This document shows positions 1,876 to 29,854 of a DNA stretch of 33,205 nucleotides, one piece after another. The notes below the pieces were generated by a model. It made no database searches. It was not told where the DNA came from and saw only the letters and a list, made by a program, of their open reading frames with translations. Location of the stretch: contig JAIOAW010000027.1 of assembly GCA_019873625.1 (NCBI GenBank), forward strand, positions 1 through 33,205. Reading direction: 5' to 3'. The first letter of the stretch is position 1. Every line of letters begins with the position of its first letter. Origin of the DNA: Chloroflexota bacterium (GTDB taxonomy: Bacteria > Chloroflexota > Anaerolineae > UBA1429). A program made the position numbers and the translations under genes.

Positions 1876-1887
1876 AACCTTTTTCTC

Positions 1888-1920
1888 ACCCTCCCGCAGG
1901 GTTGGGCCTTGCGGGAGGGT
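1888..1920. repeat. Palindromic repeat, copy A (family 1)
   Basis: ACCCTCCCGCaGG (1888-1900) is complementary to the right arm at 1907-1920, giving a roughly 13-bp stem with a short loop. It lies between ribulokinase and the membrane-protein gene, just upstream of the latter's start. The same palindrome recurs at 27924, 28714 and (decayed) 29202. No T-tract follows on the minus strand, so it is not a clear intrinsic terminator for araB. Confidence 0.75.
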
Positions 1921-1939
1921 CGAACGTGAGGAGATAAAT

Positions 1940-10281: not shown

Positions 10282-10331
10282 GGAGCGCGAGGCTCCCGCC
10301 TCGCGGCGTGGGCCAGGAGGCCCGCACTCCA
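10282..10331. repeat. Three-arm palindromic repeat, copy 1 (family 2)
   Basis: Fifty bases with outer arms GGAGCGC and GCACTCC enclosing an inner hairpin GCGAGGC-tccc-GCCTCGC and a second GGGCC/GGCCC hairpin. A near-identical copy lies at 27869-27917 (a few substitutions and one indel). It directly follows the lipoprotein stop and may act as its transcript end, but there is no T-tract. Confidence 0.8.
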
Positions 10332-13375: not shown

Positions 13376-14416
13376 ATGTCTGACCGGCCTCGCGCTGCGG
13401 TCATCGGCGGGGGCATTGCTGGGATCGCGGCTTCGCTCAACTTGGCTCAACGTGGCATCGGCGTCATTCTCATCGAGCGAGAGGCCCAATTGGGGGGGAA
13501 CGCCTCGACCGTCTGTTGCAAGGCGGTGGGAGGCGTGTGCCAGCACTGCGGGGGGTGCCTCTTCCGCGATCATCTCCGCGCCCTCGAACGCGCCGAGGGC
13601 GTCTCTGTTTTCCTCCAAACCCACGTTGAACGCGTTGAACGCCGCGAGGGGCGCTTGGCGCTCTTGTGCGAGCGGGCGCAGGGCGAGGCCCTTTCGTTTG
13701 AGGTGCCCGCCGTCATCCTAGCCACGGGGTTCGATCACATCTCCCCCTTGGCCAAAGGCCCTTACGGCTATGGCCTTTTGCCGCACGTCATCACCGGGCG
13801 AGACCTAGAGGCCCTCCTCCAAGGGCGGGGGCGCACGGCCTGCAATGAGTTGCCCCTCGGCAAGGTGGCCTTTATCCAGTGCGTTGGCTCACGAGACGAG
13901 CACAATGGCCGTGGATATTGCTCCCAGGTCTGCTGTCGCTATGCCTTGAGGCTGGCGCGCGTTTTACAAGAGAGCCGCCCCGAGGCTGAAATTGCCTTTT
14001 TCAAGATGGACCTCCAGACTTCCGGCCGAGATATGGCCGAGACCTGGGCCGCCGCGCGCGGCGCCTTCCGCATCGTGGCCGGGATGCCCGCCCTCCTCGA
14101 GCGTGGCGCCGAGGGCAAGGTCGCCTTTCGTTACGAGGAGGTGCTGACAGGGCGGCAGATTCGCGAATCGTTTGACCTTGTCGTACTGGCCACGGGCATC
14201 CAGCCCAGGGCCGATGCCGCCCTCCTGGCCGAGCAATTCGGCCTCAATCAAGACCCCTCCGGCTTCTTTGCCACCGCGCCCGACGGCGTGAGCACCCTTG
14301 TGCCCGGTGTGTTCGCAGCGGGGTGCTGCCAGGCGCCCCGTTCCATCGCCGAAAGCATCGCCCACGCCCACCAGGCCGCCCAGGCCTGCGTGCTTTATTT
14401 AGGCGGGAGGGCTTGA
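13376..14416 (+). CDS. HdrA/QmoA-like FAD iron-sulfur protein
   Basis: A 346-residue flavoprotein of the heterodisulfide reductase A family, about half the length of methanogen HdrA. It has an FAD-binding GGGIAG (11-16), a cysteine cluster CC......C..C..C (47, 48, 55, 58, 61) where HdrA carries its inserted [4Fe-4S] site, the HdrA signature FIQCVGSRD followed by GYCSQVCC (167-187), and a C-terminal FAD motif GVFAAGCC..P (311-321). It lacks the N-terminal HdrA domain and any ferredoxin motifs, as in QmoA of sulfate reducers. ATG 13376 follows GAAGGGA; an in-frame ATG at 13370 is an alternative. It probably passes electrons between a flavin and neighbouring iron-sulfur subunits. Its stop overlaps the next start (TGATG). 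Confidence 0.85.
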   Translation: MSDRPRAAVIGGGIAGIAASLNLAQRGIGVILIEREAQLGGNASTVCCKAVGGVCQHCGGCLFRDHLRALERAEGVSVFLQTHVERVERREGRLALLCERAQGEALSFEVPAVILATGFDHISPLAKGPYGYGLLPHVITGRDLEALLQGRGRTACNELPLGKVAFIQCVGSRDEHNGRGYCSQVCCRYALRLARVLQESRPEAEIAFFKMDLQTSGRDMAETWAAARGAFRIVAGMPALLERGAEGKVAFRYEEVLTGRQIRESFDLVVLATGIQPRADAALLAEQFGLNQDPSGFFATAPDGVSTLVPGVFAAGCCQAPRSIAESIAHAHQAAQACVLYLGGRA

Positions 14417-15591
14417 TGAACCCAATGCCCGGCCGCCCCCGAGGGGTTATCGTATTGGGTGCCGCGCCGGAGGCGCTTTGCGCCGTGCGGGAACTCGCCG
14501 CCTTGGGTTATGCCGTGGCGTGGCTCCCCCTTGAAGAGGCCCAGGCGCCCGCTGCTTTGCCCCCCAACGTCGCGATATACCCGGCCGCCGAGTTGGTGGG
14601 CCTCGGCGGATACGCCGGCGCCTTTTGCGCGCAGGTGCGCCGTGGCGAGGCCATCGAATGCCTTCCAGGGGCAGCCGTGCTCATCGCCCTCGGCAACGCG
14701 CGCTGCTACCCCCAAGAGCGTTACGGCTTGCCCCTTGGCCCCAGGGTCCTCACGCCCCCACAAGCGCGCCAGCGCCTCAAAGACCGCACTTTGGAGGCGC
14801 TCCTTTCCCACCGCAAGGCGCATTTCCTCGTGATGCTCGATTGGGGCGGAGAAACGAGCCGCGAGACGGCTGTGGAGGCGCTGCACACGGCGCGCGCTCT
14901 GCGCCAAAACCACGCCGAAGTGACCCTCTTTTACCGAGATTTGAAGGTGGATTCCGCCCCCTTGGAACGGCTGACGCGCCGGATGCGCGAGGAGGGCGTC
15001 GTCTTCTGCCGATATATTGAAGTGGAGGTTCGCTTCGAAGAGGGGGGCGTACATATCGCCGCGCCCGATGGCCTGGTGCGGGGAGATATGCTCATCCTGC
15101 CCGAGGCCGTGCAACCGCACCCCGCCACCCTCCCCCTGGCTGCGCTCCTCAAACTGCGCGTAGGGAAAGATGGCTATTTTCAAGAGGTCAACGTGCGCCA
15201 GGTGCGCCCCGGCTTAACGAACCGCAAAGGCATCTATGTGGCGGGGCGCTGCCATATGGATGCCGATCGAGAGGCGGCGCTGGAAGATGTTTCGCACGTG
15301 GTGGCGAGCCTCGATGCCTTTTTGCATAGCCTGGATGAGCCGCCGAGCGGCCCCACGGCGGAGGTGGAGCGGGATCGGTGCATCCGCTGTTTGACATGTG
15401 TGCGCACCTGCCCCCACGCCGCCGCCGAAGTGGTGGAGCGCGAGGGGATCACCGCGGCCTATGTCGAAAAGGCCGCCTGCTGGGGGTGCGGCATCTGTGC
15501 GGCGCACTGCCCGGTGCAGGCCATCGCGCTCAAGGGGCAAGCGGTGCCATCGTGGCTGGCCCCCACGGCCCAAGGAGTCTCTATCCGATGA
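14416..15591 (+). CDS. Degenerate HdrA-like protein with two [4Fe-4S] ferredoxin motifs (QmoB-like N-part)
   Basis: A 391-residue protein. The first 300 residues keep the outline of an HdrA flavin domain (VIVLGAAPEALCAV at the Rossmann start; GIYVAGRCHMDADREAALEDV at the end). However, the GxGxxG loop reads GAAPEA, and the QCVGSRD..CS..CC block is replaced by a cysteine-free LDWGGETSRETAVEAL. FAD binding is therefore doubtful. The C-terminus has two classic [4Fe-4S] motifs, at C322/325/328/332 and C355/358/361/365. HdrA-like plus ferredoxin followed by an MvhD domain is the order in QmoB; here the MvhD part is the next, separate gene (ATGA overlap). A role as an electron wire or scaffold is an inference. 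The frame runs upstream, but ATG 14416 fits the TGATG coupling. Confidence 0.75.
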   Translation: MNPMPGRPRGVIVLGAAPEALCAVRELAALGYAVAWLPLEEAQAPAALPPNVAIYPAAELVGLGGYAGAFCAQVRRGEAIECLPGAAVLIALGNARCYPQERYGLPLGPRVLTPPQARQRLKDRTLEALLSHRKAHFLVMLDWGGETSRETAVEALHTARALRQNHAEVTLFYRDLKVDSAPLERLTRRMREEGVVFCRYIEVEVRFEEGGVHIAAPDGLVRGDMLILPEAVQPHPATLPLAALLKLRVGKDGYFQEVNVRQVRPGLTNRKGIYVAGRCHMDADREAALEDVSHVVASLDAFLHSLDEPPSGPTAEVERDRCIRCLTCVRTCPHAAAEVVEREGITAAYVEKAACWGCGICAAHCPVQAIALKGQAVPSWLAPTAQGVSIR

Positions 15592-15953
15592 GCATGGCCC
15601 AGCGTTTGCTCGTCTTGGCGTGTAGCCGCTCGGCGGGGGAGGCCCTTGCCGCCCTGGAGGCGACGGGCCAAACGCTCCCCCCGGATGTAACTTGGGTGAA
15701 CCTCCCGTGCGGCGGCAGCGTGGATGTGTTGCACATCCTGCGCGCCCTCGAGGCCGGGGCCGAGAAGGTTTGGGTGCTCGCCTGCTACGAGGGGGCGTGC
15801 GAATCGCTCGAGGGCAACCGCTGGGCTGAAAAACGGGTCCAGTGGGTGCAAGCGTTGCTTCAAGAGATTGGCCTTGGCCCGGAGCGCGTCGTTTTCCGCG
15901 CCATTTCGCCCACGATGGCCGCCGATCTCAAGGCGTGGTTGGAGGAAGAATGA
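15588..15953 (+). CDS. MvhD/FlpD-like iron-sulfur protein, degenerate paralogue
   Basis: A 121-residue protein recognisable as MvhD (hydrogenase delta subunit family, binding a [2Fe-2S] cluster in characterised members) by alignment with the canonical copy at 22562. LACSRSAGEAL corresponds to CNWCSYAGADL, NLPCGGSVDVLHILRALEAGA to PCSSRVNPLFIIEALRLGV, and ACYEGACESLEGNRWA to GCHPGDCHYLSGNYYA. It keeps C12, C41, C66 and C71 but lacks the first cysteine of the CxxC pair. Start and stop both overlap neighbours by ATGA, and AAGGAG precedes the start. It probably forms one unit with the preceding HdrA-like ferredoxin protein, mimicking QmoB. Cluster content cannot be predicted. Confidence 0.75.
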   Translation: MSMAQRLLVLACSRSAGEALAALEATGQTLPPDVTWVNLPCGGSVDVLHILRALEAGAEKVWVLACYEGACESLEGNRWAEKRVQWVQALLQEIGLGPERVVFRAISPTMAADLKAWLEEE

Positions 15954-16621
15954 TCGTCGCCGAACGCAAACCTATGGTGGAAATTCTCGCCTCGATCCAA
16001 GGGGTGAGCCGCCTCCTCGTGGTGGGGTGCGAGACGTGCGTGGCCGTCTGCCTGGCGGGGGGCGCCAAGGAGGTGGCCGTGCTCAGCGCCGCCTTGCGTT
16101 TGGCCCTGCGCGAACGCACCTCTGCGGTCGAAATCCTCGAGCGCAGCGTCGAGCGCCAGTGCGAAGAGGAGTTCAACGCGCCCCTCGCCGAGGATATTGC
16201 CAAGGTAGAGGCCGTGCTTTCGATGGCCTGCGGCGTGGGCGTGCAGACGCTGGCCGAACAGTTCCCCGATGCGATCATCTATCCCGCGCTGAATACGCAA
16301 TTTATGGGCCGCCCCGAGGCGCCCGGCATCTGGGCTGAGCGCTGCTTGGGCTGTGGAGATTGCGTCTTGGGGCGCTTTGGGGGCATTTGCCCCATCACAC
16401 GGTGCAGCAAATCGCTCCTGAACGGGCCGTGCGGCGGCTCATCTAACGGCCGCTGTGAGGTGGACCCCGAACATTTGGAGTGCGCCTGGCAACTGATTTA
16501 TGACCGTTTGGCGCGCCTGGGCCAGTTGGAGCGCTTGTACGCCATCGAACCGCCCAAAGATTGGCGCTCCGCGCACGATGGCGGCCCCCGCCGCACCACG
16601 CGGGAGGATCTACGCCTATGA
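15950..16621 (+). CDS. metV: MetV, zinc/iron-sulfur partner of methylenetetrahydrofolate reductase
   Basis: A 223-residue cysteine-rich protein of the MTHFR C-terminal (MetV) family. The N-terminal half has CETC...C (27, 30, 34) and C94. The second half has the dense set C..C..C (132, 135, 138), C147, C152 and GPCGG (160-164), a family hallmark. In acetogens MetV binds MetF and carries iron-sulfur clusters that feed electrons to the MetF flavin. It overlaps the MvhD-like gene (ATGA) and metF (ATGA), so a MetVF heterodimer is strongly implied. All the usual cysteines appear present. The only oddity is its position downstream of HdrA-like genes rather than at the start of the operon. Confidence 0.88.
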   Translation: MIVAERKPMVEILASIQGVSRLLVVGCETCVAVCLAGGAKEVAVLSAALRLALRERTSAVEILERSVERQCEEEFNAPLAEDIAKVEAVLSMACGVGVQTLAEQFPDAIIYPALNTQFMGRPEAPGIWAERCLGCGDCVLGRFGGICPITRCSKSLLNGPCGGSSNGRCEVDPEHLECAWQLIYDRLARLGQLERLYAIEPPKDWRSAHDGGPRRTTREDLRL

Positions 16622-17559
16622 AGAGCGGGAGCCGCTTGGAGCGCCTGCTGTGGGCCGGGCATTTCGTCGTAACGGCCGAGTTAGGCCCCCCCAAAGGGCC
16701 TGATGTTGCCGCCGTGGAACGAAAGATGTCCCTCCTCGCTGGTGCCTGCGACGCCGTGAATGTAACCGATAACCAGACGGCCATCGTGCGCCTTTCCAGC
16801 GCCGCCACGTGCGCCCTTCTCCATCAACACGGTATCGAGCCGGTGATGCAGATGACTTGCCGAGACCGCAACCGCCTGGCGATGCAATCCGACATCTTTG
16901 GCGCGGTGGCCTTGGGCGTGCGCAACCTGCTCTGCCTGAGCGGAGACCATCAAAAGTTCGGCAATCACCCCTCCGCCAAGAACGTGTACGACCTCGACTC
17001 CATCCAGATGATCCAGATGGTCAAACGCCTGCGCGATGAGGGCCTCACCGCTGGGGGCGACCCCGTCGAGGGCGCGGTGCCCCTTTTCATCGGGGGTGCC
17101 GCCAACCCCTTTGGCGACCCGTTTGAAATGCGCGTCATCCGCCTGGCGAAAAAGGTGGCCGCCGGCGCAGATTTCATCCAGACGCAGTGCGTCTTCGACC
17201 TTCCTCGCTTCAAAGAATGGATGCGCCGCGTGGTAGATCTCGGCCTGCACGAAAAGGTAGCCATCCTTGCCGGGGTGATGCCCCTCAAATCGGCTGGCGC
17301 TGGGCGGTATATCAACGCGAACGTGCCGGGCATCACCGTGCCCGAGGCGATCATCGAGCGCCTGTCGCGCGCCGGGCGGGGTGCCAAAGCGCGCGAGGAA
17401 GGGATGCGCCTCTGCGCCGAGACGATTCAAGAACTGCGCACCATCGCAGGGGTGCGCGGTGTGCACATTATGGCTGTCGAGTGGGAGGAGGCCATCCGCC
17501 CCATCGCAGAGATGGCCGGCCTTTTGCCCCGGCCTGAACCGCCCGAGGTGGCCCCCTAA
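16618..17559 (+). CDS. metF: 5,10-Methylenetetrahydrofolate reductase (MetF)
   Basis: A 313-residue TIM-barrel flavoenzyme that interconverts 5,10-methylene-H4folate and 5-methyl-H4folate, the step feeding the methyl branch of the Wood-Ljungdahl pathway and methionine synthesis. Seen: TAELGPPKG (19-27) with the acidic residue E21 at the catalytic position, NVTDNQ, MQMTCRDRNR, LCLSGDH, GAANPFGDP, GADFIQTQCVFD (flavin/folate pocket) and AGVMPLKS. This is the acetogen-type short MetF that works with MetV rather than the stand-alone NADH-dependent form. It is coupled to metV by ATGA; a 31-bp gap with an AAAGGATG ribosome site leads to hdrC. Direction in vivo (methyl synthesis or oxidation) cannot be read from sequence. 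Confidence 0.92.
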   Translation: MKSGSRLERLLWAGHFVVTAELGPPKGPDVAAVERKMSLLAGACDAVNVTDNQTAIVRLSSAATCALLHQHGIEPVMQMTCRDRNRLAMQSDIFGAVALGVRNLLCLSGDHQKFGNHPSAKNVYDLDSIQMIQMVKRLRDEGLTAGGDPVEGAVPLFIGGAANPFGDPFEMRVIRLAKKVAAGADFIQTQCVFDLPRFKEWMRRVVDLGLHEKVAILAGVMPLKSAGAGRYINANVPGITVPEAIIERLSRAGRGAKAREEGMRLCAETIQELRTIAGVRGVHIMAVEWEEAIRPIAEMAGLLPRPEPPEVAP

Positions 17560-17590
17560 ATCCCTCGACACCCCCACAAAGGATGAGCCG

Positions 17591-18079
17591 ATGGACGACG
17601 CAACCTATGACCCGAACTTTAAATATGACGTAGCCTCTCAACCGGGCGCCGAGCAGGTCAAGGTCTGCTACGCGTGCGGCACCTGCACGGCGGGCTGCCC
17701 CGTGGCCGAGGTGGAGGCGCGCTTCAGCCCACGGCGGATCATCCGCCAAATCCTGCTGGGCCAGAGAAGGGCCGTCCTCTCGAGCGAACTCCTCTGGTAT
17801 TGCGAGACGTGCTACACCTGCTCGGCCTACTGCCCGCAGAACGTCCAATTCGGCGACGTGATGCGCGCCCTGCGCGAGATGGCCATCGCCGAGGGGTATT
17901 TTAGCCGCGAGGTGGCCGAGCGCCTCCGCCGGGTAGACCGCCTGGCGCACGCGATGCGCTTGGAACTCGTCCGCGCCGCCCTCGACGCGCCTGAGGCACC
18001 CCTCCCCAATGCGTTAGAGAAGGCCCTTGAGGCCATCGCGGCGCGCATCAAGGCCCTGGAGGGAGCGCCCGATGCCTGA
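17591..18079 (+). CDS. hdrC: HdrC-like two-cluster [4Fe-4S] electron-transfer subunit
   Basis: A 162-residue soluble protein with two full [4Fe-4S] motifs, C26xxC29xxC32xxxC36 (CYACGTCTAGCP) and C71xxC74xxC77xxxC81 (CETCYTCSAYCP). Between and after them lie the helical spacer and the NVQFGDVMRALREMA segment typical of heterodisulfide reductase subunit C. The last 60 residues are a charged helical tail. In Hdr complexes HdrC wires HdrA clusters to the catalytic HdrB; no HdrB gene follows here. It sits directly between metF and the giant hdrA, overlapping the latter by 8 bp, so it most likely bridges HdrA and MetVF. ATG 17591 was chosen for its ribosome site although the frame is open upstream. 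Confidence 0.9.
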   Translation: MDDATYDPNFKYDVASQPGAEQVKVCYACGTCTAGCPVAEVEARFSPRRIIRQILLGQRRAVLSSELLWYCETCYTCSAYCPQNVQFGDVMRALREMAIAEGYFSREVAERLRRVDRLAHAMRLELVRAALDAPEAPLPNALEKALEAIAARIKALEGAPDA

Positions 18080-21000
18080 GCGAGAGGCCCAAGGCCCCAT
18101 CGGTTCCGTGCTCGTGGTCGGCGGGGGCATCGCCGGCATTCAGGCCTCGCTCGACTTGGCCGAGGCCGGGTTCCAGGTGCATCTCCTCGAATCCTCGCCC
18201 GCCATCGGCGGCACGATGGCCCAACTCGACAAGACCTTCCCCACGAACGACTGCTCGATGTGCATCCTCTCGCCCAAGGTGGTGGAATGCGCCCGCCATC
18301 TGAATATCCACCTGATGACCTATAGCGAGTTGGATTCCGTCGAAGGCGAGGCCGGCCGTTTTCGCGTGCGCATCCGCCACAAGGCGCGCTATGTGGACCC
18401 CCTGCGCTGCACGGGCTGCACCGAATGCGCCTCCGTGTGCCCCGTCGAGGTGCCCAACCTGTTTGACGAGGGGCTAGGCCAGCGCAAGGCGATCTATCGC
18501 GCCTACCCGCAGGCCGTGCCGAACGTTTTCCTCATCGAAAAGCGCGGCGCCTCCCCTTGCCGGGCCGCTTGCCCCGCTGGGACGCACGCCCAAGGATATA
18601 TCGCCCTCATCGCCCAAGGGCGCTATGCCGAAGCGCTCGAACTTTCTCGCCAGGCCAACCCTTTCACCTCCGTCTGCGGGCGGGTGTGCTACCATCCCTG
18701 CGAAACGGCCTGCAGCCGCCAACTGGTGGGCGATGAACCCGTGGCCATCGCCGCCCTCAAGCGCTTTATGGCCGATTGGGCCGCCGAACACGGCGATAAG
18801 CCTGTGGAACGCGCCCCCATCACGCGCCGAGAGCGCATCGCCATCGTGGGCGCCGGGCCGTGCGGGCTGACCGCCGCGCGCGACCTCGCGCTCTTGGGCT
18901 ACGGTGTAACCGTGTTCGAGGCCGCGCCCAAGCCAGGGGGTATGCTACGTTACGGCATCCCCGATTACCGCCTGCCCCCGGAGGTGCTCGACCGGGATAT
19001 TCAGCGCATCCTGGACCTCGGCATCACCCTGCACTGCAACGCGCCCGTGCGCGATCTCGAGGCGCTGCGCGCCGAGTTCGACGCCATCCTACTGAGCATC
19101 GGCGCACACCGCTCGCTCCCCTTGCGCATCGAGGGCGAAGGGTTGGCGGGGGTCCTTTCGGCCGTGGACTTCTTGCGCGCCGTCAATAGCGGCGAGCGCC
19201 CTTCCCTGGGCCAGCGCGTCCTCGTCATCGGCGGGGGGAATACGGCAATGGACGCAGCCCGCTGTGCGCGGCGCTTGGGCGCTCAGGTAACCATCGCCTA
19301 CCGCCGTTCGCGCGAGGAGATGCCCGCTTACGCCTTCGAGGTGGCCGAGGCGGAGGCAGAAGGGGTTGAGATTCGCTTCCTGTGCAACCCTGTGCGCATC
19401 CTGGGCGAGGAGGGGCGCGTTACGGGCCTCGAGATGATCCAGATGGCCCTGGGCGAGCCGGATGAGAGCGGCCGTCGGCGCCCCTTGCCTATCGCCGGCT
19501 CGGAATTCATCCTCCCGGCGGATGCCATCATCCTGGCTGTGGGGCAGGCGCCCGATACGCGCTTCTTGCCGGAGGGGTTGCGGCTCACCCGATCTGGCAC
19601 GCTTGCCTATGACGAAGCAACCCTGGCCACTTCGCTCGAGGGCGTGTTCGCCGCCGGAGACGCCGCCACCGGCCCCCGCACGGCCATCGAGGCCGTGGGC
19701 ATGGGGCACCGCGCAGCAGAGGCCATCCATCGCTACCTATCGGGGGAGGGCGTTACCTTCCTGGAGCGCGTGGACCCCGCGCAAATTGCCCTCCTTGACC
19801 GCACCGAAGCGGTTCGGCAGGTGGCCCAAGGGGCAGCCAGCCGCGCAAGAAGGGCCATCCCCGCCGAAGTGGCGCCCGAAGAGCGGATCAGGGGGTTCGG
19901 CGAGGTTTCGCTTGGCCTGACGGAAGAGCAGGCCCACGCCGAAGCCCAACGGTGTTTGCAGTGCGGCATCTGTTCAGAATGCCAGCGTTGCGTGAGCACC
20001 TGCAAGCCCCAGGCCATCCACCATACCTTGGGCGAGACCTATTCGGAAATCGAGGTCGGGGCCATCCTCCTCGCCACGGGGTTTGACGAGTTCGATGCAC
20101 ACCGCAAGCACGAACTGGGCTATGGCCGCCTGGCCGACGTCCTCACCCATATCGAGTTCGAACGCCTCCTCTCCGCCTCCGGCCCCTATGGGGGGCATGC
20201 CGTGCGCCCCTCCGATGGCAAACCGTTCCGGCGCATCGCCTTTGTGCAGTGTGTCGGCTCGCGCGATGTGGCCTGCGGCAATGGCTATTGCTCCTCCATC
20301 TGCTGTATGGCGGCCATCAAAGAGGCCATCATCGCCAAAGAGCACGACCCGGACGTCGAGGCGACGATCTTTTTCATGGATTTGCGCGCCTTTGGCAAGG
20401 ATTTCGACCGCTATTATGAGCGTGCCCGCGCGGAATACGGCGTGCGCTTTGTGCGGTCGCGCGTGGCCAAGGTCGAGCGCCTGCCCGACGGCCGGCTAGA
20501 TGTTACCTACACCGACGAAGAGGATCGCCCCCAGCACGAGGCGTTTGACCTCGTGATCCTCTCGGTGGGGCTGGAGCCTTCCAAGGGGACCTACGCGTTG
20601 ACCGAAAAACTCGGCCTGCGGCGCACGCCGGAGGGGTTCATCGTCACCGAAGAACTTGCCCCGCTCTCTACCTCGCGCCGAGGCATCTTTGCCTGCGGCG
20701 TGGCCACCGGCCCGAAAGATATCCCCGAGACGGTAACCCAGGCCAGCGCCGCCGCCGCGGAGGTCGGCCGGCTCCTCGCGCCCAGCCGCCATACGCTCAC
20801 GCGCCAAAAGGTCTATCCGCCGGAGCGCGATGTGGCCGGCGAGGCGCCTCGCGTGGGGGTGTTCATCTGCCATTGCGGCATCAACATCGCCGGCACGGTG
20901 GATGTCGAGGCCGTTTGCCGTTATGCCGAGGGGCTGCCTTACGTCGTCTACGCGGGGCGGAACCTCTTTACCTGCTCGCAAGATACGCAGGAGGCCATCA

Positions 21001-22565
21001 AACAGATCATCCAGGAGCGCGGCATCAACCGCGTGGTGGTGGCCTCCTGTTCGCCGCGCACGCACGAGGCGCTCTTTCAAGAGACGATCCGCCAGGTGGG
21101 CCTGAACCCGCACCTGTTCGAACTGGCGAATATCCGCGACCAGTGCGCCTGGGTGCACCAGCGGGAGCCGGCGGAGGCCACCGAAAAGGCCAAGGACCTG
21201 GTGCGTATGGCCGTGAGTCGCGTGGTGTATCACCGCGCCCTGCGCGGCCAAATGGTGCCCGTTACGCCCAGCGCCTTGGTGCTCGGCGGGGGCCTGGCGG
21301 GGATGACCGCCGCGCTCGACTTGGCCGACCAGGGCTACGGCGTGCACCTCGTGGAGCGGGAGGAGGCCCTCGGCGGGAATGCGCGACGCCTTTATAGGAC
21401 GCTGCGCCAGGGCGATTTTCAGCGCGCCTTGGGCGACCTCATCGCCCGCGTCGAGGGGCACCCGCGCATCACTGTGCATACGCGCACGGAACTCGCGCGT
21501 CTAGAGGGGTTCGTGGGGAACTTTCAGAGCACCCTCAGGCGCCTCGAACCGGACGATATGGGGGAAGAGACGGTCGAGCACGGCGTGCTCATCCTCGCCA
21601 CGGGCGCCCAAGAGCGCCGCACGGCGGAATATTCCTACGGCCAAGACCCGCGCGTCCTCACCCAACGCGAGTTGGAAGAACGCCTCGCCTCGGGCGATTT
21701 TGCCCTTCAGGGGCGAGAGACGATCGCGATGATCCAATGCGTCGGCTCGCGCACCGCAGAGCACCCCTACTGCAGCCGCGTGTGCTGTTCCCAGGCCCTG
21801 AAAAACGCCATCGCCCTGAAAGAGCGCTACCCAGAGTGCACCCTCATCATCTTTTATCGGGATATCCGCACCTACGGCCTGAGCGAGGCCTACTATCGCC
21901 AAGCGCGCGAGATGGGGGTGGTGTTCATCCCCTATGACCCGCAGGGCGCCGAACCCGGCGGCCCGCCGCGCGTCGAACCGCGCCCAGAGGCCCTCTACAT
22001 CGCGGCGTATGACCCGATCCTCCGCGAGACGATCCCCATCAAGGCGGATTGGCTCATCCTGAGCGTGGGCATTGCCCCGCGCGAGGATGCCGAGGAGTTG
22101 GCCAGGCTCCTGAAGGTGCCCCGCAATGCGGATGGCTTTTTCCTCGAGGCCCATATGAAACTGCGCCCCGTGGAATTCGCCACCGAAGGCATCTATCTGG
22201 CCGGCCTGGCGCACGGCCCCAAATCGGTGGAGGAGGCCATCGCCCAGGCCAAGGCCGCCGCCGGGCGAGCGGCAACCGTCTTGGCGCAGAAAAGCCTTAT
22301 GGCGCCCGGCACCGTGGCCTTTGTGGACGCCCTCTCTTGCGTAGCCTGCGGAGATTGCGTGGCCATCTGCCCCTATGGGGCCATCCAAATCGTGACCAAA
22401 GAGGTGGCGCGGCGCCAGTTCAAAGAGTGCGCCGAGGTGAACCCCACCCTCTGCAAGGCCTGCGGGGCCTGCGCGGCGGCCTGCCGCTCGGGGTGCATCA
22501 CGCTAGAAGGGTTCGATGACCGCCAGATTTTCGCCCAAATCTTTGCGCTAGCGATGGGGAAATGA
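18072..22565 (+). CDS. hdrA: Giant tandem HdrA with inserted GltD/NfnB-like NAD(P)H flavin module
   Basis: A 1497-residue protein, more than twice normal HdrA. Order: (1) HdrA-1 flavin start GGGIAG (17-22), cluster cysteines C61, C64, C73 and ferredoxin motif C113-C123. (2) Insert from about 158: helical cysteine domain (C163, C167, C202, C206, C210, C214), FAD loop GAGPCG (260-265), NAD(P)H loop GGGNTAMDAAR (387-397), FAAGDA (526-531), a cysteine set 628-644. (3) HdrA-1 resumes at about 660, with QCVGSRD...CC (726-745), to about 906. (4) HdrA-2: N-terminal domain ICHCG (932-936), CSPRTHE, flavin loop GGGLAG (1072-1077), QCVGSR...CC, and ferredoxin motifs at 1423-1433 and 1461-1475. HdrA-2 lacks the CxxC seen at 61-64. 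Three flavins and many clusters are predicted. A flavin-based bifurcating hub is inferred. Confidence 0.9.
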   Translation: MPEREAQGPIGSVLVVGGGIAGIQASLDLAEAGFQVHLLESSPAIGGTMAQLDKTFPTNDCSMCILSPKVVECARHLNIHLMTYSELDSVEGEAGRFRVRIRHKARYVDPLRCTGCTECASVCPVEVPNLFDEGLGQRKAIYRAYPQAVPNVFLIEKRGASPCRAACPAGTHAQGYIALIAQGRYAEALELSRQANPFTSVCGRVCYHPCETACSRQLVGDEPVAIAALKRFMADWAAEHGDKPVERAPITRRERIAIVGAGPCGLTAARDLALLGYGVTVFEAAPKPGGMLRYGIPDYRLPPEVLDRDIQRILDLGITLHCNAPVRDLEALRAEFDAILLSIGAHRSLPLRIEGEGLAGVLSAVDFLRAVNSGERPSLGQRVLVIGGGNTAMDAARCARRLGAQVTIAYRRSREEMPAYAFEVAEAEAEGVEIRFLCNPVRILGEEGRVTGLEMIQMALGEPDESGRRRPLPIAGSEFILPADAIILAVGQAPDTRFLPEGLRLTRSGTLAYDEATLATSLEGVFAAGDAATGPRTAIEAVGMGHRAAEAIHRYLSGEGVTFLERVDPAQIALLDRTEAVRQVAQGAASRARRAIPAEVAPEERIRGFGEVSLGLTEEQAHAEAQRCLQCGICSECQRCVSTCKPQAIHHTLGETYSEIEVGAILLATGFDEFDAHRKHELGYGRLADVLTHIEFERLLSASGPYGGHAVRPSDGKPFRRIAFVQCVGSRDVACGNGYCSSICCMAAIKEAIIAKEHDPDVEATIFFMDLRAFGKDFDRYYERARAEYGVRFVRSRVAKVERLPDGRLDVTYTDEEDRPQHEAFDLVILSVGLEPSKGTYALTEKLGLRRTPEGFIVTEELAPLSTSRRGIFACGVATGPKDIPETVTQASAAAAEVGRLLAPSRHTLTRQKVYPPERDVAGEAPRVGVFICHCGINIAGTVDVEAVCRYAEGLPYVVYAGRNLFTCSQDTQEAIKQIIQERGINRVVVASCSPRTHEALFQETIRQVGLNPHLFELANIRDQCAWVHQREPAEATEKAKDLVRMAVSRVVYHRALRGQMVPVTPSALVLGGGLAGMTAALDLADQGYGVHLVEREEALGGNARRLYRTLRQGDFQRALGDLIARVEGHPRITVHTRTELARLEGFVGNFQSTLRRLEPDDMGEETVEHGVLILATGAQERRTAEYSYGQDPRVLTQRELEERLASGDFALQGRETIAMIQCVGSRTAEHPYCSRVCCSQALKNAIALKERYPECTLIIFYRDIRTYGLSEAYYRQAREMGVVFIPYDPQGAEPGGPPRVEPRPEALYIAAYDPILRETIPIKADWLILSVGIAPREDAEELARLLKVPRNADGFFLEAHMKLRPVEFATEGIYLAGLAHGPKSVEEAIAQAKAAAGRAATVLAQKSLMAPGTVAFVDALSCVACGDCVAICPYGAIQIVTKEVARRQFKECAEVNPTLCKACGACAAACRSGCITLEGFDDRQIFAQIFALAMGK

Positions 22566-27868: not shown

Positions 27869-27917
27869 GGAGCGCGAGGCTCCTGCCTCGCGGCGTGGGC
27901 CAGAGGCCCGCGCTCCA
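27869..27917. repeat. Three-arm palindromic repeat, copy 2 (family 2)
   Basis: Outer arms GGAGCGC and GCGCTCC close perfectly (27869-27875 with 27910-27916) around GCGAGGC-tcct-GCCTCGC and GGGCC-aga-GGCCC. It is nearly identical to 10282-10331 and lies in the 255-bp gap upstream of thiS, seven bases before a family 1 palindrome. Confidence 0.85.
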
Positions 27918-27923
27918 CATTTC

Positions 27924-27959
27924 AACCCTTCTGCAGGTTTGGAACCTGCGGAAGGGTTT
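27924..27959. repeat. Palindromic repeat, copy B (family 1)
   Basis: AACCCTTCTGCAGGTT - TGG - AACCTGCGGAAGGGTT: a 16-bp stem with one wobble pair and a compensatory C-to-T/G-to-A change relative to copy C, which suggests the stem itself is maintained. Confidence 0.85.
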
Positions 27960-28012: not shown

Positions 28013-28699
28013 TTAGAGAAGGGGTTTCTTACGAGGGTTCTTTAGCCCCGTGGTGAGTTTGTTCCTCACTTCACGCTTAACCAGGGCGGGTAAGGCGTCC
28101 TCATACTCCCCCAGGAAGGCCTCGACGGCCTGCGGCGCGTGGATGACCAACTCCCTCAACGCCCAAGAGAGCGCCTTGGCCACCATTTCCTCGCGATCGT
28201 TCGCCAAAAGGCGGCAGACCATCAACGTGCGTTCCACATCCCCTTGGCCCCCATGCGAGCGCACATTCAGAGCGACAGTGCTCACCAGGGCCGCCCGCCG
28301 CCACCAAAGGTCGGTGGATTTGGCCCAGCGGAGGATCGTCTCATCCGCCACTTGCCCCTTTAACCAGGCCGGCCCGGAGAGCGTGCGGGCAAAGGAATCT
28401 ACCGCCCCCCAACTGTTGATGCCCTGCCCGAGTTCTTCGAGTTCCGCTTCTCCCACCCGTCGAAAGGCCGTTGGATGGTCGGCGAGTAACTCGTAGGCGA
28501 AGGAACGCTGGCCAAACCGCTGAACGAGGATGCGGCCTACCTCCAGGAGAAAATCCGCTCCGGCTTTTCGAAAAAGGCGCGAATACTTGCGGCGGAGCGC
28601 CCGTTCGTTCGGGGTATTCGGCACCTCCAGCGCCCGTACGTCGGCGTCAATCGCCGAGGCCGCCGCCAAGGGATCGTTCCACACGGCGAAGGGTTCCAT
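28013..28699 (-). CDS. DNA alkylation repair protein, AlkD-like HEAT-repeat glycosylase
   Basis: A 228-residue, mostly helical protein of the AlkC/AlkD family, which removes alkylated purines (3- and 7-methyl, bulky adducts) using a HEAT-repeat cradle. Recognisable blocks: RRKYSRLFRKA, INSWGAVDSFA (with the W..VD motif), AKSTDLWWRRAALVSTVAL, KALSWALRELVIH and ALVKREVRNKLTTGLKNP. Size matches the family. The start ATG 28699 lies 4 nt after the stop of the upstream membrane-protein gene, and its closest Shine-Dalgarno-like bases come from the palindromic repeat inside that gene, so translation is probably coupled. Cytoplasmic, DNA repair; the exact lesion is unknown. Confidence 0.87.
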   Translation of the reverse strand: MEPFAVWNDPLAAASAIDADVRALEVPNTPNERALRRKYSRLFRKAGADFLLEVGRILVQRFGQRSFAYELLADHPTAFRRVGEAELEELGQGINSWGAVDSFARTLSGPAWLKGQVADETILRWAKSTDLWWRRAALVSTVALNVRSHGGQGDVERTLMVCRLLANDREEMVAKALSWALRELVIHAPQAVEAFLGEYEDALPALVKREVRNKLTTGLKNPRKKPLL

Positions 28700-28703
28700 G
28701 AGA

Positions 28704-29201
28704 CTATGGGCCTAACCCTCCCGCAGGTTGGGAACCTGCGGGAGGGTTTTTATATCGTTCACCGGCCCCCCAGAGCACCGCGAGGTTCGCCCCCAACAGC
28801 GCCATAAGGAACTGCAAAAAGGGCGAGATGATGACCATCAAGACGAGCCACCCGATGAAACTCGCCTTTGGCTCATAGAGGATGAGCGGGATGCCAAAAT
28901 GGGCCAAATCGGCCGTGGGGTCAAATAGCATCGGAAGGCAACGCCCCCATACCACAGCCATCAGGAGAAAGGTGAACCCCCCAAGGGTCGCCGTGCCCAG
29001 GAGCATCTTCCCCAACAAGGCCTTCACCTCATAGGAGCGAGCCATAATCCTCCGCGCGATGTACCACCCCGCCGGGAGGCCCAACAGGATGCAAAAGATA
29101 GGGACGCCCATCCCTAGCCCCACGCCAAAGACGTCCAAAAAGGCCAAGAGGGCGAGCGCCCAGCCGATTTTCCACGAGAGGATTCGATGGAGCATATACA
29201 T
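28704..29201 (-). CDS. Small polytopic membrane protein of unknown function
   Basis: A 165-residue protein with about four transmembrane helices (around residues 10-32, 33-50, 63-85 and 113-143) and a short polar C-terminus. No known family is recognised. Two features stand out: its last 14 residues (NPPAGSQPAGGLGP) are encoded by palindromic repeat copy C, and its ribosome site GGGAAGGG is supplied by decayed palindrome copy D directly upstream. A second ATG two codons in (29195) is an equally good start. It lies between the GNAT gene and the AlkD-like gene on the same strand and is probably cotranscribed. Confidence 0.65.
   Translation of the reverse strand: MYMLHRILSWKIGWALALLAFLDVFGVGLGMGVPIFCILLGLPAGWYIARRIMARSYEVKALLGKMLLGTATLGGFTFLLMAVVWGRCLPMLFDPTADLAHFGIPLILYEPKASFIGWLVLMVIISPFLQFLMALLGANLAVLWGAGERYKNPPAGSQPAGGLGP
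28714..28748. repeat. Palindromic repeat, copy C (family 1), inside a CDS end
   Basis: AACCCTCCCGCAGGTT - GGG - AACCTGCGGGAGGGTT, a perfect 16-bp stem, followed on the plus strand by TTTTT. It forms the 3' coding end of the small membrane-protein gene. The T-tract is on the strand with no gene upstream, so terminator function would be for antisense transcripts only. Confidence 0.9.
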
Positions 29202-29240
29202 TGCCCTTCCCGCCGAGTTTTGGAACCTGCGAGAGGGTTT
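29202..29240. repeat. Palindromic repeat, copy D (family 1), left arm decayed
   Basis: The right arm TGGAACCTGCGAGAGGGTTT is intact apart from one base; the left arm (CCCTTCCCGCCGAG) has diverged so the stem is broken. It abuts the ATG of the small membrane protein. Confidence 0.65.
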
Positions 29241-29275: not shown

Positions 29276-29854
29276 TTAAGCGGGCTCGCCCAAGGGGGGT
29301 TGTTCAGGCCTTCGCATAAGATACTCCTCCCGCAGAATGGCGTACATCGCCATATCCTCGAACTTTTCCCAGCGGTAAACGGATTGCCTCAACGTGCCTT
29401 CGTAGGTCATCCCAATCTTTTGCATCACCCGGCCGGAAGCGGGATTCTTTGTCATATGGCGGGCCTGCACGCGGTTCACCCCCAGCACCTCGAAGGCATA
29501 GCGCAGGGCCTCTTGCGCGGCCTCGGTGCAGTAACCCCGGCCCCAATAGGGTTTGCCCACCCAATAGCCCAGTTCGGCGTAACGGTTCGCCTTGTTGAGG
29601 GAGAGGCTCATAGCCCCCAGGAGCGCGCCATCCTCCCGCCGGGTGATGGCCCAGGTAACCAGTTCGCCCCCTTCGAAGGCTCTTTGGTGTGTACCGATCC
29701 ACTCTTCCGCCATCCCCTCCTCGTAGGGGTGCGGGATGGTCGTCATCTCGGCGATCTCTCGCTCTCCGGCGAGGGCGCGCACGGTGGGAGCATCTTCCAA
29801 CGTGAAGGGGCGCAAGATCAAGCGAGCCGTGGCAAGGGTTGGGATGAATGTCAT
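29276..29854 (-). CDS. GNAT N-acetyltransferase, RimJ/RimL-like
   Basis: A 192-residue acetyl-CoA-dependent acyltransferase. The start TARLILRPFTLEDAPTVRAL is the common RimJ/RimL-type entry. AELGYWVGKPYWGRGYCTEAAQEAL is motif A with the pyrophosphate-binding loop (GRGY), followed by VNRVQARHMTKNPASGRVMQKIGM, the motif B helix with the conserved N and S. Such enzymes acetylate protein N-termini, or small amines and antibiotics; the substrate is unknown here. ATG 29854, preceded by GAGGA, was chosen over longer in-frame starts because the conserved domain begins at once. It stands 74 bp upstream of the small membrane protein gene. Confidence 0.88.
   Translation of the reverse strand: MTFIPTLATARLILRPFTLEDAPTVRALAGEREIAEMTTIPHPYEEGMAEEWIGTHQRAFEGGELVTWAITRREDGALLGAMSLSLNKANRYAELGYWVGKPYWGRGYCTEAAQEALRYAFEVLGVNRVQARHMTKNPASGRVMQKIGMTYEGTLRQSVYRWEKFEDMAMYAILREEYLMRRPEQPPLGEPA

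Follow-up and report, generated by a model that had tools for sequence, protein, structure and literature searches.

Genes and palindromes at the locus

We analysed a stretch of 33,205 nt (the window) from a Chloroflexota bacterium of the Anaerolineae (contig JAIOAW010000027.1), whose genome (G000) is a draft assembly of 47 contigs. Towards the end of the window lies a cluster of three genes, for a GNAT acetyltransferase, a small membrane protein and a DNA alkylation repair protein, all on the minus strand, and three copies of a palindrome are placed around it: copy D before the membrane-protein gene, copy C at the end of that gene and copy B after the alkylation repair gene. The features are as follows.

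29276..29854, minus strand: GNAT acetyltransferase gene (PF13302), upstream of copy D
29205..29240: copy D, a decayed palindrome shortly upstream of the membrane-protein start codon
28704..29201, minus strand: small membrane protein gene (165 aa as given by the ORF; 163 aa with the second ATG)
28714..28749: copy C, an intact palindrome (AACCCTCCCGCAGGTT-GGG-AACCTGCGGGAGGGTTT) within the 3' end of the membrane-protein gene
28707..28748, minus strand: the 14 codons of the tail, made mostly by copy C (product NPPAGSQPAGGLGP)
28013..28699, minus strand: DNA alkylation repair (AlkD-type) gene (PF08713, 93.5 bits)
27924..27959: copy B, a palindrome of the copy C family, past the 3' end of the AlkD gene
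1887..1922: copy A, a palindrome of the copy C family between two co-directional genes, its core starting 14 nt from the ATG end of a 556-aa ORF on the minus strand

Copy C is in frame with the membrane-protein gene and codes for most of its 14-residue tail. An earlier note on this DNA, made from the sequence alone, had assigned all of the last 14 residues to the palindrome; by the ORF translation, the codons of NPPAGSQPAGGLGP consist of copy C minus one base plus 7 nt of flank, so that NPPAGSQPAGG is the palindrome-linked portion and the final residues LGP come mostly from flanking DNA. The tail would be translated with the rest of the protein. The AlkD gene starts 4 nt past the membrane-protein stop codon, and the membrane protein itself reaches the cut-off of no Pfam or NCBIfam family.

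In a computed fold copy C forms a near-perfect hairpin (MFE −31.1 kcal/mol); with this and with 41 other copies, intact or decayed, in the genome, the palindrome is not there by chance. Copy D has one arm a single base off the consensus and the other eroded, shares 64% identity with copy B and folds with an MFE of −12.3.

Orthologous loci and the structure of the tail

Scanning named genomes, we found 24 related loci (59% identity for the first one), which according to their record titles span several phyla (Chloroflexi/Anaerolineales, Bacteroidetes, Atribacteria and others). The first Met of the orthologues is aligned with, or adjoins, the second ATG of the window's gene (29193-29195), so the true start is probably this second ATG and the protein 163 aa long. 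No member of the palindrome family, even with 3 changes allowed in each arm, is present at any of the 24 loci between 650 nt ahead of the gene end and 200 nt past it. The conserved stretch closes at about FGAHLALLW, some 20 residues before the window's stop codon, and the tails beyond it differ locus by locus. In a 21-row alignment the 20 orthologues have 2–29 residues past the VLW column, of unrelated sequence, compared with 21 in the window. The longest of these tails (29 residues, L019) exceeds the window's and has no palindrome, so a long tail is not in itself unusual. Two loci are exceptions, one (L034) running off its contig and the other (L031) departing from the homologous frame. The earlier note had named an orthologue with the same C-terminus and no palindrome as evidence that would count against it; no such orthologue is among these loci, whose tails, where seen, differ from the window's. 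The gene is found in 3 of 100 genomes, including G000, and the nearest proteins share about 60% identity or less, which leaves no close empty-site comparison at the window.

An AlphaFold2 model built on the same alignment (mean pLDDT 84.3) has helices up to residue 149 and coil over residues 150–163, i.e. the palindrome-coded part. The pLDDT of the tail is reduced rather than very low (74 for residues 151–160 and 57 for 161–163, compared with 88–96 in the preceding helix blocks). From the model and the variable orthologue tails, the window's tail looks tolerated rather than useful.

Distribution of the palindrome family

The family is REP/TIR-like, about 35 nt long, with the consensus CCTCCCGCAGGTTN(1-6)AACCTGCGGGAGG. 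About 42 copies, intact and decayed, are found in G000. This count comes from a first search with 61 matches on both strands, followed by a fuzzy scan of 35 stretches and a filter that removed C1:169070, whose arms differ, and any fuzzy match exceeding 5 changes. A pattern with exact arms matches 24 of the 396 genomes of the class (G000 included), from 19 families, and a reversed control pattern has no match in the same 396 genomes. A search of a plasmid collection with the palindrome gave no match.

Altogether 145 copies were examined: 42 from G000, 34 from G020 and 69 distinct ones spread over 22 further genomes. The G020 figure leaves out 12 of 46 short-core matches with different outer arms; several of these carry a GTAG close to the foot and look like members of a different repeat. 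Where a genome has more than 5 copies, the first places only were taken, save in G000, G020 and part of G284. With genes called by a codon-usage script rather than a standard gene caller, 15 of the 145 copies overlap called genes (2/42 in G000, 3/34 in G020 and 10/69 in the others). From the coding fractions (0.885, 0.864 and 0.829), about 37, 29 and 57 overlaps would be expected, respectively. Of the ten overlaps in the other genomes, four are no more than 100 nt from a called start and could be miscalls. Among the 130 copies that do not overlap a called gene, 18 are at contig or stretch edges.

Position 7, beyond the outer arm, covaries: it is paired in 96 of 129 copies (a set that includes another repeat of G020) against a shuffled mean of 43.3. 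This base, just outside the six-base outer arm, is variable yet paired across the hairpin, and the next one is A on the left (114 of 129) and T on the right (109 of 129).

Two other repeats were seen along with the family. A second GC-rich palindromic repeat (GGAGCGCGAGGCTCC...GGCCCGCGCTCC) is at 10282-10316 and 27869-27903 of the window; it is often near members of the copy C family and has 54 short-core matches in about 200 kb of overlapping G000 stretches. Four G020 loci (L135, L141, L152 and L161) carry a separate repeat with a GCAGGTT...AACCTGC core and GTAG near its foot, apparently a GTAG-type REP.

In-frame copies in other genes

The element has no stop codon in any of the three frames, which read xPPAGxxPAGG, TLPQVxNLREG and PSRRFxTCGRV. 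We found 11 apparent in-frame insertions (the window's, one in a methyltransferase-like gene and nine others), and all three frames are used: the first arm encodes PPAG in six of the 11, LPQV in four and PSRR in one. Three of them are internal and can be compared with solved structures. In an aconitase (G366), PPAGSKPAGG directly precedes PDTLVGTDSH, and 11 residues at this place are absent from human IRP1 (2b3x); in a NuoF/HydB-type subunit (G020), nine residues absent from 7t2r_B match EPPAGSKPAGGL; and in an amidohydrolase (G020), the alignments with 3igh and 3icj have gaps at HPPAGFEPAGGS. RsmI (L218) has a C-terminal tail made from the palindrome, and the solved-structure alignment stops before this tail. 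The remaining five cases are read from sequence only: a C-terminal palindrome tail in a membrane protein of G256 (L232), in-frame palindromes in a PMT-type glycosyltransferase (L121), in a spermidine-synthase-like membrane protein (L203) and near the end of a GT4 glycosyltransferase (L206), and the second copy in L230, in frame within a putative ORF.

In G000 two copies are at gene ends, the window's and C1:150771. The latter supplies the last residues (IPSRRFQT) and the stop codon of a protein that we take to be DNA methyltransferase-like, in a frame different from the window's. No Pfam family was matched in the stretch of this protein that was searched, and the tails of its six orthologues are likewise variable. 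Four overlaps (L192, L215, L221 and the first copy in L230) were not accepted as insertions, since they lie solely near the called 5' end, where the start codon is possibly misplaced; L221 also runs off its contig.

A transposase clade flanked by the palindrome

Elsewhere in the class, the arms of the palindrome flank one clade of REP-type tyrosine transposases (L297–L300 and L305; support 97/90 in a tree of 37, i.e. the 30 best loci and 7 others). In all five members at least one exact arm (CCTCCCGCAGG or its complement) is within 150 nt on each side. L297, L299 and L305 have two exact arms upstream; in L298 and L300 one of the upstream pair is one base off, and L305 has a single arm downstream. 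L300 and L305 have their arms some 50–70 nt from each other, which resembles a pair of inverted repeats more than a tight hairpin; if the three tight-hairpin members alone are considered, two changes are needed on the tree. An exact arm was found near none of the other 32 transposases, some of whose flanks are short (L288, L265, L324, L311, L325 and L326), with contig ends cutting into some of them; three of the 32 have one-base variants of the arm (L302, CGTCCCGCAGG; L304, CCTCCCGGAGG; L317, CCTCCGGGAGG). The member in G256 is an intact protein of 192 aa encoded between two tight palindromes; it matches PF01797 with 43.5 bits (cut-off 23) and NF047646, the NCBIfam model for REP-associated tyrosine transposases, with 77.5 bits, just under the cut-off of 80. 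The G020 gene is also between two copies of the palindrome and has two internal stops.

Relatives of the G256 transposase (E 1e-10 or better) are found in 114 of the 396 genomes, none of them in G000, and a search of G000 for PF01797 / Y1 transposases likewise gave no match. The members of the clade are hosted by G256, G020, G212, G036 and G043, of which G256 and G020 are the only exact-arm carriers (the arms in G212, at L299, have a slightly different centre). No clade member was found in the other 22 of the 24 carriers; with this, and with no transposase detected in G000, most copies look orphaned. A Y1 transposase of any kind (PF01797 match) is present in 17 of 23 carriers vs 14 of 23 non-carriers: the position of the transposase, not its mere presence, tracks the palindrome. 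The earlier note had called the palindrome mobile. A dispersed family of mobile origin is well supported by these flanking sequences, for genomes elsewhere than in G000 itself.

Long palindromes that differ in sequence flank several other RAYT-like genes of the class (L258, L267, L268, L270, L289 and L314). That these genes have palindromes of their own suggests co-diversification of transposase and palindrome.

Potential ribosome sites

The stretch GGGAAGGG (29204-29211, minus strand), supplied by copy D, is 2 nt from the first ATG of the membrane-protein gene, which is the ATG that the earlier note had in mind when it reported this ribosome site, and 8 nt from the second, the probable start, which is a normal spacing. 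Its duplex with the anti-Shine-Dalgarno sequence has a computed energy of −8.6 kcal/mol (using a generic 16S tail), and the GGAAGGGC stretch is half unpaired in the computed fold. It is thus plausible that copy D serves as the ribosome site of this gene. The earlier note placed copy C immediately before the AlkD start. The G-rich arm of this copy stands 16 nt away from the AlkD ATG and has a predicted pairing of about 98%, which would make a poor ribosome site, and copy C was ruled out as the AlkD Shine-Dalgarno sequence on these two grounds.

Over the three copy sets, the distance from a copy to the downstream start is 5–14 nt in 2 of 92 cases and at most 20 nt in 9 of 92 (copy D, at 4 nt from the first ATG, is outside the 5–14 nt class). 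Supplying ribosome sites is therefore not a general role of the palindrome.

Interpretation

We consider it likely (probability about 0.75) that copy C is an orphan REP/TIR-like palindrome and that the tail of the membrane protein is a tolerated read-through of this transposed element. The enzyme likely to have mobilised it is a tyrosine transposase of the REP-associated type (RAYT/TIRYT, Y1 HUH family), which a few other genomes of the class carry. In the past the palindrome would have been inserted, or copied, beside the stop codon that the membrane-protein gene originally had. As the element is GC-rich and free of stops in every frame, the reading frame may have continued across it to a stop shortly afterwards, so that the protein gained an unstructured tail and its stop codon came to lie 4 nt ahead of the AlkD start. 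The insertion may have survived because the C-terminus of this protein family tolerates varied tails, in which case the tail would be a neutral by-product of transposition rather than a selected peptide. Copy D would have landed upstream and decayed, and its G-rich arm may pair with 16S rRNA by an accident of sequence.

The earlier note had seen here a clear case of domestication, as coding and translation-control sequence; on such a reading the tail would have a selected function and copy D would be kept as a ribosome site. The tail is open and in frame, GGGAAGGG is 8 nt from the likely start and forms the computed duplex given above, and peptides resembling PPAG-x-x-PAGG recur in unrelated proteins. 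The same peptide in unrelated enzymes is, however, what follows from a shared DNA sequence; other copies are read in the two other frames, the tail is predicted to be coil, the tails of the orthologues vary freely and are unrelated, and copies rarely lie at a suitable distance from a start. We therefore regard domestication as improbable, and the claim for the window should be reduced to a tolerated insertion. A broader form of the idea, in which a lineage-specific RAYT and an untagged palindrome open in three frames recurrently supply core enzymes of Anaerolineae with linkers and tails rich in Pro/Ala/Gly, with some of the peptides (the window's tail included) under selection, seems to us quite unlikely, if slightly less so.

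The copies could instead be selected as hairpins in the transcript (3'-end terminators, RNA stabilisers or attenuators), with the coding overlap incidental; this is compatible with a tolerated read-through and has a better, still small, chance of being right. In its favour, no copy is between divergent genes in G020 (0/29) or in the 22 further genomes (0/45), where intergenic length predicts 3.3 and 4.8 (chance 0.029 and 0.006); copies are a median of 8.5 nt from a gene 3' end in G020, 35 nt in G000 and 51.5 nt in the others; and the outer-arm bases covary, as described above for position 7. In G000, on the other hand, 9 of 38 copies are between divergent genes (14 expected, chance 0.06), and among exact-arm copies TTTTT is within 12 nt of the hairpin foot in 7 of 103 and TTTT in 26 of 103, so few of them would be intrinsic terminators. 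Insertion within enzymes is left unexplained, and a like placement is described for ordinary REPs (PMC3733652). Finally, a sequencing or assembly error might hide an earlier stop, so that the 3' end of the 165-aa ORF is misread and copy C is intergenic. The 47-contig draft and the conserved core ending about 20 residues before the stop would fit such an error, which we nevertheless hold to be very improbable, as RsmI, the methyltransferase-like gene and L232 have the same arrangement, and aconitase and further enzymes of other genomes have the palindrome internally.

Relation to known repeat systems

REPs are mostly between co-directional or convergent ORFs near 3' ends and also occur within ORFs and at ORF ends; GTAG repeats have been reported in Chloroflexi, and some RAYT-like genes have flanking non-GTAG repeats that are sometimes self-complementary (PMC3733652, Di Nocera et al. 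2013). REP insertions that preserve the frame, and REPs specific to a subclass, are also described (PMC6006769, Quentin et al. 2018). In-frame REPs are thus already described, and the window's palindrome is a further case.

The likeness to REP/RAYT systems (REPtrons; PMC3733652, PMC6006769) lies in dispersed palindromes of 20–40 bp, mostly intergenic near 3' ends and some in ORFs, paired by lineage with a Y1 transposase. The window's family has the length, the dispersal and the mostly intergenic placement of REPs, and it flanks a cognate RAYT in 5/5 members of the clade, none of which was found in G000; it differs in being a near-perfect palindrome and in the NCBIfam REP score of its transposase, which falls slightly short of the cut-off. 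At 8 nt or less from the hairpin foot, GTAG and GTGG are each found in 0 of 103 copies and CGTC in 1 of 103, compared with 1 to 7 of 103 at control distances. With this tag absent, the family is not a GTAG or CGTC REP, and a TIRYT-type arrangement fits: a RAYT-like gene, inverted repeats that are possibly self-complementary, and no GTAG tag. TIRtrons/TIRYTs are described as RAYT-like genes between inverted repeats that have no relation to GTAG REPs; some of these repeats are self-complementary and some form moderately abundant families (PMC3733652). In the passages with which our family was compared, by description only, neither a TIR family of Chloroflexi nor a TIR inserted in frame is mentioned. 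The Rickettsia palindromic elements (RPE), also compared by description only, are palindromes in frame within unrelated protein genes (PMC10969869; PMC3733652), as is the window's family; they are about 150 bp long and found in Rickettsia according to PMC10969869, a review of MITEs, whereas our element is about 35 nt long and has a likely transposase.

Literature searches on Chloroflexi REP/RAYT, Chloroflexota transposases and Anaerolineae palindromic repeats gave no title on the window's palindrome family among the matches listed (for one set, the best 10 of 43). Our results indicate that ordinary enzymes gain peptides from transposase-linked palindromes in what appear to be Chloroflexota, beyond the groups for which the papers cited here describe it, and with a likely transposase named, the mechanism of insertion is open to testing. 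For annotation, tails or linkers reading PPAGxxPAGG, TLPQVxNLREG or PSRRFxTCGRV in carrier genomes are probably read-through repeats.

We note that the window has repeats of another kind at 13400-21355, where segments are repeated among several oxidoreductase-like genes (direct repeats D1, D2 and D4), presumably of FAD/NAD-binding, heterodisulfide-reductase-like proteins.
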